Of a stretch of DNA of 49,986 nucleotides, positions 46,636-49,937 are shown one piece after another. Under the pieces are notes generated by a model. That model was not told where the DNA came from. It did no database searches and was given only the letters and a program-made list of their open reading frames with translations. Each line of letters starts with the position of its first letter. Position 1 is the first letter of the stretch. The DNA lies in the NCBI GenBank assembly GCA_028871815.1, contig JAGWMJ010000016.1, positions 1 to 49,986 of the forward strand, written 5' to 3'. The position numbers were made by a program, and so were the translations under genes. The stretch comes from Armatimonadota bacterium. GTDB lineage: Bacteria; Armatimonadota; Chthonomonadetes; Chthonomonadales; Chthonomonadaceae.

Positions 46636-46715
46636 AAGGGATGCAGTTTGCGGTCGACGCGTTATGGCCGGCCGCTGAGCGTCGGACGGGAGATCGGTTT
46701 TGCAGGGACGGGAAA

Positions 46716-47525
46716 ATGTCTCACACCCCTTCAGCCGAGCAGATCGAATGGGACGTTTTGCTGCAGCGTGCCCGAGCGGGCAGCGACTCGGCGTTTGAGC
46801 AGGTCGCTCATCGCATTGATCGCCGTGTGCGCCGGATCGCTGCGCGTACCCTGAACCTTGGCGGCAGCAAAGCTCCAGCGCCGGCACTGCGCGATTTGAT
46901 TGACGATTGCGCCTCGGAGATTGTGATCTGGGCGCTCACGCGCATTCGCAAGGACAAGCCGGTAAACCCCTGGTCGGCGGTTTTCGACAACTGGGTTCGG
47001 CATCGCGCGCTCAGGGCCTCGCGGCGCATTGAGTTCGTGAACGCACACCTTAACTCATGGATGGACGACCGCTGCCGCCAACACGACGTGGATCCGGCTG
47101 CCGACCGGATGGCATTGGACGCCGAACTGGTGCACGATCTGGCTCAGAGCGTGCCATCGGTGAAATGGCTGCTTCTGAGAACAGAGGGCTGGACGCTCCG
47201 CGAGATCGCACAAGAGGCCGGCCTTTCGCAAAGCGCAATCTCTCGCGTTATAGAGCGGGCACGCATCGTGGTTGCGGATCGGCTGTCGGAGGCGAACTCC
47301 GAGTTACGGCCCGTCTCGCGCCGACCAGCGGCGGCGCGGCGCGAGTGGCGCACCGCTCCCACGGCCCCTCCGGTCCCGCGCCGCGTGACGCGTGAGCCGG
47401 CGCGAGCGCACTTTGATCTTCCACCCGTGCTGCGGTTCTCGTTACGATTGCAGCAGCCCGATTCGCCCGCCGCCGCCGAATTTGCAGATCGACCAGGACT
47501 CTGCAACACCCGCGCGCCGCGCTGA
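46716..47525 (+). CDS. Sigma-70-family (ECF-like) transcription factor 1
   Basis: 269 residues. Region 2-like: WDVLLQRARAGSDSAFEQVA, DLIDDCASEIVIWALTRIRK and WSAVFDNWVRHRALRASRRI. Region 4-like helix-turn-helix: LLLRTEGWTLREIAQEAGLS, then QSAISRVIERARIVVADRL. A 70-residue Arg/Pro/Ala-rich tail of unknown function follows. I choose ATG 46716 with GGGACGGGAAA in front. The second sigma-like gene follows on the same strand, and an anti-sigma-like gene faces both. It probably responds to an envelope or external signal, but this is inference. Confidence 0.75.
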   Translation: MSHTPSAEQIEWDVLLQRARAGSDSAFEQVAHRIDRRVRRIAARTLNLGGSKAPAPALRDLIDDCASEIVIWALTRIRKDKPVNPWSAVFDNWVRHRALRASRRIEFVNAHLNSWMDDRCRQHDVDPAADRMALDAELVHDLAQSVPSVKWLLLRTEGWTLREIAQEAGLSQSAISRVIERARIVVADRLSEANSELRPVSRRPAAARREWRTAPTAPPVPRRVTREPARAHFDLPPVLRFSLRLQQPDSPAAAEFADRPGLCNTRAPR

Positions 47526-47592
47526 CTTCTTCTATATGTGGGACCAACTCGGCCTGGTACGTCCGTCGGCGGCCAGGCGATCGGAGCGGAGC

Positions 47593-48234
47593 ATGGCCAG
47601 CATGACATTACAGGACCAGCAGCGTCGGGCGACATGGGAGGCCTGGAATGCGCTCGTGGCAAGGTGGTGTGACGGCGACCCGCGCGCGCGCGAGGATGGC
47701 TGGAAGTCGGTCGAGGAGCGCGTCACGAAGATTCTTTCGCCGTACTCCGGATCTGTCAGCTGGTCCCAGGATGCCCACGCGGAGTGGATCGGCGACGAGG
47801 TGCTTCGCTGGCAATCGTGGGCGGACCGAAGGGTAAGCCGCCAGTTGGACGTGACCATCTGGACCGTAGACTTTCGCCGATGGGTGCGGTCGGCTGCGGC
47901 ACGGGCCAACAAAAAGTGGAATCACAGCGAGTGCGTCTGCGCGATTGCTGAGTTGGGCCCGGAGGGGCTCGAAGCCCTTGACTTTGCCAGGTGGTTGCGA
48001 CGGTGCGAGGAAACCGACCCAGATGAAGTCGTCCAGCTGATAGCCACTCATATAAAGAATCCGACCTACCGCCAGTGGTTAACCTGGAACGTAGTCTATG
48101 AAATGACCTGCCAGGAGATCTCACTCCAAGCGAACCCCCCTATGAACCCGGCGACAATTCGATCCGGCGTCATGAGGGCACGTCAAGTCCTGGCTGCAGT
48201 TCCGGAAGTCCGCGCATGCCTGGAAGGATGGTGA
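47593..48234 (+). CDS. Divergent sigma-like protein 2
   Basis: 213 residues, same general plan as the gene before it. An N-terminal helical part (QQRRATWEAWNALVARWCDG, DAHAEWIGDEVLRWQSWADR, DFRRWVRSAAARANKKWNHS) corresponds to region 2. A C-terminal part (YRQWLTWNVVYEMTCQEISL, then NPATIRSGVMRARQVLAAV) corresponds to region 4. Core residues of both regions are poorly conserved, so it may be a sigma factor gone astray or a regulator derived from one. Start at ATG 47593 after CGGAG; ATG 47536 is possible. It shows no separate promoter and lies 67 bases after the first. Confidence 0.55.
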   Translation: MASMTLQDQQRRATWEAWNALVARWCDGDPRAREDGWKSVEERVTKILSPYSGSVSWSQDAHAEWIGDEVLRWQSWADRRVSRQLDVTIWTVDFRRWVRSAAARANKKWNHSECVCAIAELGPEGLEALDFARWLRRCEETDPDEVVQLIATHIKNPTYRQWLTWNVVYEMTCQEISLQANPPMNPATIRSGVMRARQVLAAVPEVRACLEGW

Positions 48235-48395: not shown

Positions 48396-49604
48396 TCAAT
48401 GAGTCGGTTGGCCGGTTGGAGGTACGGTGGTGTCGTGTGGCGGCTGTTGCGCCTGCCCAATACCGGCAGGCTCATCCTGTGGCTGAGGAGCAGGTGGCAG
48501 GTTTGTGTGGAAATGGCGCCGCACATAGGCGACTACGTTCCTCGCCGCGGTCGGATCCAGTCCGGGATGCTCCGTTGCCGCGATTGCATCGTCTGCGAGG
48601 CCATAGTAGGTATAGAGGAGCGCCATCTGTAGGGAGCTCGCTGCCTCTTCGGCCCTGGCTTCCTGAACTCTTGAGGCAGCGGCCGAGTCGAGGACGAGGA
48701 ATGTGGCGTCCGAGGAACGCTGGCCGTTCGCGGCCCGGACATACCATCGGTAAGTGACGCCGCGGGCGAGTGGCGTGGCCACCTTAAACGTGTGCGATAC
48801 CGACGTGGTGCGCAAAACCACCTCCCAATGCTGGCCGCGCAGTGTTTCCAGCACGAACAGCAACGGCGCCTTTTTCGGCGCCGTTGCAATCAACTCAGGC
48901 TGTGTAGTTAGGATGGCCGTGCCGCTGGGTGACGCGGCGAACAGCGAGAGACCCGGCGTAACCGACATGCCGCGACCGGTCTGCGCCGCCGGTTCCGCGT
49001 GGTAGAGCGCCCTGGTCACCAGCGGTGAAACGGATGGCTGGGAGGGCAGCAGGGATGTCTCGGGAAGAACGGGAGCTTGAGCGCGGAACGTGTGAATAGC
49101 TAACAGCGCGGCTGTGCCGCCGGCGGCAACCAGCAGCACACCGTAGCCGAGCGCCTGCCCGAGGCGGCGTGTCCGCTCGCGACGGCGCTCGCCTCGACCG
49201 GTAGTCCGGATGATCGAAAAGATCTTTTCTGGTCCGGCCGCGATCGACTCTCGCAGCCGGTTCTCGGCGCCGAGCGCCAGCAGCTTGTTTATCTCACGGT
49301 ATTCGTGCTGACAAAACTCACAACCCGCGACGTGCCGCATCACGGCTGCCGCCTGGTGGTACCGGATGCCTTCCTGGATAACGCGCCGCAGTGCGTCATC
49401 ACCGACACACTCGGGCGAGGCGGGCGCGAGGAAGTCCAGGTCGTCCGCGTCGAATTCGTCAATATGTTGAGAGTCCGCCTCGATGTCAACGGGGTCGACA
49501 GGGTCCCTTGCAGCAATCGGCGGCCGCTCATCGGCTACCGCGGAGGCTGGACTATTGCCCGTGTCGCGCTCACGGCGCGCGCGTGATTTGGGGGTCCGGA
49601 TCAG
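48396..49604 (-). CDS. Anti-sigma-like zinc-finger membrane protein, CTG start
   Basis: 402 residues. An acidic first segment (DIEADSQHIDEFDADDLDF) precedes a zf-HC2-like zinc finger: ECVGDDALRRVIQEGIRYHQ, then MRHVAGCEFCQHEYREI (H-x3-C-x2-C). A basic stretch (RGERRRERTRR) leads to one membrane helix (GYGVLLVAAGGTAALLAIHT). The outer part has a beta-rich domain (HWEVVLRTTSVSHTFKVATP, YRWYVRAANGQRSSDA) and a Pro/Gln-rich end. No ATG, GTG or TTG occurs in the first 87 codons although the sequence is clearly coding; CTG 49604 lies seven bases after a perfect AGGAGG (49612-49617). It likely holds one of the convergent sigma-like proteins at the membrane. Confidence 0.75.
   Translation of the reverse strand: MIRTPKSRARRERDTGNSPASAVADERPPIAARDPVDPVDIEADSQHIDEFDADDLDFLAPASPECVGDDALRRVIQEGIRYHQAAAVMRHVAGCEFCQHEYREINKLLALGAENRLRESIAAGPEKIFSIIRTTGRGERRRERTRRLGQALGYGVLLVAAGGTAALLAIHTFRAQAPVLPETSLLPSQPSVSPLVTRALYHAEPAAQTGRGMSVTPGLSLFAASPSGTAILTTQPELIATAPKKAPLLFVLETLRGQHWEVVLRTTSVSHTFKVATPLARGVTYRWYVRAANGQRSSDATFLVLDSAAASRVQEARAEEAASSLQMALLYTYYGLADDAIAATEHPGLDPTAARNVVAYVRRHFHTNLPPAPQPQDEPAGIGQAQQPPHDTTVPPTGQPTH
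48860..48887. repeat. Perfect 11-base hairpin inside the anti-sigma-like gene
   Basis: GCAACGGCGCC (48860-48870), loop TTTTTC, reverse complement GGCGCCGTTGC (48877-48887). It lies in the coding sequence for ATAPKKAPLL and could act on the antisense or sense transcript. Confidence 0.7.
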
Positions 49605-49937
49605 TGGTACGCCTCCTGAATGCGATTATGCCGATGCGAACGCCTCTGTGGCGATACGTCTTGGCCGTAAAAGAAAACGATCTCAAAATCACAAGCTTTT
49701 TAGATGATTAATAAACCGGTGTTCGCAGGCGCCGACCAACTAATTGTGGTTTTCGTGCTCACACATGCGAACTGTGCATGTGCGGTCAGCCCCGTGCAAT
49801 CAGGCGCTTCACGTGCCTGTAGGGCGCTGATAGAAGTCAGCGGGATGACGGAATCGGCGCAGGAAACCAACCTTGGTGTGGCAAACAGCACGGCAATGCG
49901 CTTCGCGTGCGGGACGGCAGCGCATCGGAGGCGGAAT
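49605..49937. other. AT-richer intergenic region
   Basis: Base composition is noticeably richer in A and T between about 49665 and 49760. Probably it holds the promoter of the anti-sigma-like gene (minus strand) and perhaps one for the gene starting at 49938; no hexamer pair is convincing enough to name. Confidence 0.4.

Follow-up and report, generated by a model that had tools for sequence, protein, structure and literature searches.

Non-canonical start codons are used by infC in many bacteria. They are stated for infC and for Streptomyces in the excerpted text of PMC5472188, according to which IF3 represses Streptomyces sigR, whose start is a GTC behind AGGAGGTG, and making this start canonical leads to excess SigR. 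In Listeria monocytogenes, rsbW mutants with the start codon ATA or ATT are described, in the excerpt of PMC13068326, as less translated and higher in SigB activity, and their authors propose a changed anti-sigma to sigma ratio. PMC11497404 (excerpt) presents a solved initiation complex formed on CUG, in which the initiator tRNA is a variant. Among the zinc-binding (ZAS) anti-sigma factors, the excerpted reports name His25, His50, Cys54 and Cys57 as the ligands of RslA (PMC2877774) and Cys11 and His37 as ligands of RsrA (PMC2893595). Within the literature covered, a search joining anti-sigma factor and CUG start codon found no paper, and a search on CTG and anti-sigma brought up sigR and, within the excerpts returned, no CTG anti-sigma gene.

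Here we examine a putative anti-sigma gene whose frame opens without a canonical start codon. The window, meaning the whole stretch of DNA analysed (49,986 nucleotides), is one entire contig of the 22 that make up a draft genome of 3.68 Mb, and only 382 bases remain between position 49604 and the contig end. The features discussed are as follows.

49612-49617, minus strand: AGGAGG Shine-Dalgarno sequence, 7 nt before CTG 49604 (anti-SD match).
49602-49604, minus strand: proposed CTG start codon (inferred); ATC 49601-49599 follows directly and is indistinguishable from it as a start.
48396-49604, minus strand: putative gene for a ZAS-type membrane anti-sigma factor, 402 residues from CTG 49604 (open frame, translation, codon usage).
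49410-49604, minus strand: N-terminal tail, residues 1-65, predicted disordered (pLDDT below 50 for residues 1-64).
49341-49343, minus strand: GTG, first canonical start-like codon, codon 88 from CTG 49604; a start there loses C66.
49236-49409, minus strand: ZAS domain, residues 66-123, with ligands C66, H91, C95 and C98 (alignment and model).
49095-49151, minus strand: hydrophobic segment, probably a single membrane helix, residues 152-170 (Kyte-Doolittle 19-residue maximum 1.96).
48690-48956, minus strand: FN3-like beta domain, residues about 217-305 (AlphaFold2 and VIA-align, Z about 6, low-confidence model).
47593-48234, plus strand: second convergent ORF, between the sigma-like and anti-sigma genes (no family match above cut-off).
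46641-47525, plus strand: convergent ECF-sigma-like gene, candidate partner (TIGR02937, E 1.3e-9, 37.9 bits, below the cut-off of 42.9).

The open frame lies on the minus strand between an upstream in-frame stop, TAA 49628, and TGA 48396. From TAA 49628 down to 49343 it contains near-cognate codons only (CTG 49604, ATC 49601, ACG 49562, ATT 49517, AGG 49508, ATC 49484, ATT 49463, CTG 49439, CTG 49391, ATC 49379 and ATC 49367), which bears out the statement of the first-pass annotation that no ATG, GTG or TTG precedes codon 88. Such a lead is exceptional. Counted from the stop it measures 94 codons and ranks third among 303 ORFs sampled from 445,076 bases of this genome, where the median is 9 and the 99th percentile 92.7 codons. 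The two longer leads belong to a 165-codon ORF judged spurious and to an ORF in which the lead scores as non-coding (-0.20 bits per codon). The lead of the anti-sigma ORF scores like the gene body in codon usage (+0.16 and +0.15 bits per codon), in agreement with the earlier view that the zinc segment and the acidic stretch before it are coding.

We have little doubt that the product is a zinc-binding membrane anti-sigma factor, for which sigma binding is predicted. The anti-sigma-like identity, named already in the first-pass annotation, is upheld by the ZAS motif, by the fold match and by homologues located after ECF sigma genes. The putative ligands are arranged as C66-x24-H91-x3-C95-x2-C98, including the HxxxCxxC motif, and the 25 residues from C66 to H91 agree with the position of the fourth ligand in the ZAS family, about 25 residues upstream. 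In the excerpted reports RsrA and RslA likewise have HxxxCxxC and, some 25 residues ahead of that motif, a fourth ligand; the ligand spacing of RslA is identical to that of the window protein, and the gap between the first two ligands of RsrA is one residue longer. Since a fold search with the full-length model was filled by FN3 domains and thus did not probe the ZAS part, the zinc segment was modelled alone (residues 60-150, 91 residues, mean pLDDT 71.9). The best match of its ZAS domain was ChrR (2z2s, Z 8.1, 61 aligned residues, rmsd 3.5), followed by RslA (3hug, Z 5.4), the anti-sigma factor of SigK, which we take to be RskA (4nqw, Z 4.4), and ChrR again (2q1z, Z 4.3). All four top matches are thus anti-sigma chains, with Z values moderate for a helical domain. 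By sequence, the top PDB match was RsiW, a weak one (E 0.38), and no Pfam or NCBIfam anti-sigma or zf-HC2 model was listed after filters that drop weak matches. Compared with RsrA, ChrR, RslA, RskA and RsiW, the window protein additionally has an outer part, in which helical hairpins are modelled beside the FN3-like domain, and a long acidic tail, whose second half (residues 30-64) counts 11 D/E and 1 K/R.

Comparison with homologues places the start upstream of the GTG. A paralogue in the same genome (contig C3; positions 1057-1878 of locus L002, minus strand) matches at 48% over residues 65-152, carries the four ligands and starts with ATG; its outer part is shorter. Outside this genome, the closest full-length homologues are L003 and L006 (from genomes G050 and G076). 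Both are distant, have the ligands and the outer part in common with the window protein, and come immediately after an ECF sigma gene (TIGR02937, 2.9e-17 and 1.8e-14, above cut-off). C66, H91, C95 and C98 are invariant in the four aligned homologues, and because they are kept in the paralogue and in both distant full-length homologues, C66 appears to be needed. A start at GTG 49343 would drop C66 together with the first helix, both kept in homologues, which argues for a start further upstream and confirms the earlier remark that the first half of the zinc finger would be lost.

Alignment of homologues had been named in the first-pass annotation as a check on the start, and besides the invariant ligands it brought out how uncommon this gene is. 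Of 291 genomes searched with the profile, 45 produced matches, 62 rows in all; 30 rows came with loci, which together with the window yielded 31 ORFs, reduced to 30 distinct ones because L130 is the window's own gene, and to 29 after removal of L154, which is without the motif. A canonical start codon precedes the first ligand, the equivalent of C66, in 28 of these 29 genes, the window gene being the only exception. A script found 27 of the 28, and the remaining one (L137) was settled by reading: its ATG stands three codons before the presumed real first Cys, the script pattern having caught an earlier Cys. The distance from the first canonical codon to the first ligand is 28 to 40 codons in the three nearest homologues and 2 to 9 in many others. 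A close orthologue in which the CTG could be compared was sought among 60 relatives, where G050 alone matched, weakly; in genome contigs with query A1, which gave none; and in five genomes titled Armatimonadetes or Chthonomonas/Chthonomonadaceae, where a scan run without a positive control gave none either. No congeneric genome was found, the best match in a PurK scan having only 58% identity. Chthonomonadaceae and further Armatimonadetes stood among the top PurK matches alongside other phyla, a hint that the genome may belong to Armatimonadota.

Several lines of evidence point to CTG 49604. The 16S rRNA of the same genome ends in GGATCACCTCCTTTCT and so carries the anti-SD CACCTCCTTT. AGGAGG does stand at 49617-49612, seven bases before the CTG as previously stated, and its duplex with the anti-SD amounts to -10.3 kcal/mol, a value reached or surpassed at 16 of 203 first-ATG sites, which serve here as proxies for starts rather than as verified ones. 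On the same footing, the 60-nt fold around the CTG is open (-9.5 kcal/mol, against means of -14.7 at the 203 first-ATG proxies and -17.6 at 303 mid-ORF sites), and a weaker local fold occurs at 14% of the first-ATG sites. The coding signal begins at the same place. The 65 codons from CTG 49604 to the one before C66 score +9.7 bits (null mean -26.7), and the 29 codons preceding ATT 49517 score +2.8 bits (null -9.9, p 0.021) in the anti-sigma frame and as coding in no other, in comparison with -32.3 bits for the 55 codons above the upstream stop.

The Shine-Dalgarno site is strong yet not unique in the genome. AGGAGG occurs 20 times in the window, counting both strands, and in the 445-kb sample 64 of 24,240 codons (0.26%), among them 10 of 504 ATG codons, have a perfect AGGAGG 5-9 nt ahead of them. 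The claim that this is the best ribosome site in the window stands as to its strength, and as to its rank has been checked for part of the starts in the window. We rejected the idea that CTG serves as a general start in this genome, at least for the 445-kb sample: a Shine-Dalgarno sequence precedes CTG at the background rate (22 of 808, 2.7%; all codons, 693 of 24,240, 2.9%; ATG, 45 of 504), from which it follows that a start at CTG is at best a rarity in this genome.

A parallel exists in the same genome. Its infC gene (contig C8, 57185-57697, plus strand; above the family cut-off) lacks an ATG, GTG or TTG ahead of codon 43, which in this frame already falls inside the family-matching part, and an ATC is found five bases after AGGAG, within GGGAGGAG. 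As judged from the sequence, infC likely starts at this ATC, and the organism probably uses starts that IF3 discriminates against. The lack of a canonical start in infC makes a real CTG start in the anti-sigma gene more believable; it also makes ATC 49601, the codon directly after the CTG, an alternative to be taken seriously.

We infer that translation of the anti-sigma gene starts at CTG 49604, and hold this to be probable, well short of certain. The original proposal that the protein begins there is sustained in so far as the CTG is the best available start by Shine-Dalgarno sequence, open RNA, coding signal and the infC parallel; initiation itself is deduced from these. Support is lowered by the absence of Shine-Dalgarno enrichment at CTG codons and by a tail longer than in most relatives. 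A start at ATC 49601, in the manner infC seems to adopt behind GGGAGGAG, would lie 10 nt after AGGAGG, outside the scored range of 5-9, and the CTG at 7 is better placed; we consider the ATC unlikely. The 65-residue tail, exceeding that of most relatives, means that the start might be found further downstream, at ATT 49517, ATC 49484, ATT 49463 or CTG 49439. A tail from one of these codons would be of relative-like length (28 to 40 codons between first canonical codon and first ligand in the nearest homologues), and the coding signal is strongest from 49484 on. However, no AGGAGG-like sequence was found before these four or before other near-cognate codons of the frame, and the 29 codons upstream of ATT 49517 are still coding, in the anti-sigma frame alone, which leaves a later start with a small probability.

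It is equally improbable, in our estimate, that base 49604 is truly A, G or T and that an ordinary start is masked by strain variation or by an error in sequencing or assembly. A single wrong or variant base would explain everything, because each of the three alternatives is canonical and well spaced from the Shine-Dalgarno sequence, and the gene lies near a contig end in a draft assembly. Yet the error would have to hit one particular base, still 382 bases from that end, and infC shows that absent canonical starts can be real in this genome. An indel hiding a start in another frame was discarded, as by eye no canonical codon follows AGGAGG directly in any frame; a substitution alone could hide a start for the same reason. 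Least probable of all is that the gene is decaying after loss of its start, or is made only in a short form from GTG 49343. That GTG is the first canonical start-like codon, but it has a weak Shine-Dalgarno duplex (-5.8 kcal/mol) in strong local structure (-19.9 kcal/mol), the short form would be without C66 and helix 1, and the frame runs unbroken for 402 codons whose usage resembles that of coding sequence. CTG 49604 accordingly remains our preferred start.

In the 382 bases left in the contig upstream of the anti-sigma gene there is no sigma gene. The nearest sigma-like gene is arranged in tandem with the second ORF, which has weak relatives, and the pair (46641-48234, plus strand) is convergent with the anti-sigma gene. 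TATAAT stands just 5' of ATG 46641, and the sigma-like gene may in fact begin at a second ATG, at about 46716. With the nearest sigma-like gene convergent and none upstream in the contig, simple operon stoichiometry is inapplicable as it stands. A sigma gene was detected directly upstream in 6 of 28 distinct homologues (L148 dropped for having no ORF of 100 codons, L173 being a repeat of L145), including the two closest, by a small profile of five sequences, including the one from the window and those from L003 and L006. It matches the window, L128 and L129 by construction (the sigma genes of two homologues were also found by NCBIfam), and a non-match upstream of other homologues is weak evidence. 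With only 6 of 28 homologues having an adjacent sigma gene, separation of the two genes may be common in the wider family. Within 20 kb of locus around the paralogue, the same profile gave no cognate sigma gene. Elsewhere in this genome (contig C21, 13458-14141 and further on), one open frame joins a sigma-like domain to a long stretch of repeats, TPR-like by eye; the frame counts at least 588 codons and continues past the edge of the locus.

These features suggest a possible mode of action. A membrane-anchored anti-sigma factor would hold an ECF sigma factor by its cytoplasmic acidic tail and ZAS domain, and would detect a signal with its outer part, which is FN3-like and helical. CTG 49604 would be read by initiator tRNA as fMet at low efficiency, partly compensated by the perfect AGGAGG seven bases upstream, and such a weak start may keep anti-sigma synthesis low or sensitive to IF3. 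It is plausible, as a hypothesis, that the weak start sets the ratio of anti-sigma to sigma. A more specific version, which we think rather improbable, is that the level of a ZAS anti-sigma factor with no co-transcribed sigma gene and a CTG discriminated against by IF3 would track IF3 and initiation fidelity, as a mirror image of sigR, and that infC would be controlled in a similar way.

Set beside the described systems, so far as the excerpted reports describe them, the locus resembles Streptomyces sigR in that an extensive AGGAGG-type site precedes the non-canonical start, the gene belongs to a circuit of a sigma factor and a ZAS anti-sigma factor, and annotation missed the start. In Streptomyces, however, the weak start is on the sigma gene, with the anti-sigma factor RsrA in excess, whereas here it is on the putative anti-sigma gene, which, unlike the sigR circuit, has no linked sigma gene upstream in the contig and is known from sequence alone. 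Listeria rsbW carries its weak start on the anti-sigma gene, as proposed here, but in selected mutants instead of as a resident CTG. RsbW, moreover, is not known as a ZAS protein.

With a start caller limited to ATG, GTG and TTG, the protein would be truncated to residue 88 onward and its zinc site lost, and the gene would therefore be missed or mis-annotated. Weak starts in sigma-factor circuits are already known, and the window gene most likely adds one such case. Among the literature found, as excerpted, the earlier weak starts are on a sigma gene (sigR) or in selected mutants (rsbW); if the CTG is used, the weak start of this gene would be a natural one and would belong to the inhibitor in a sigma circuit.
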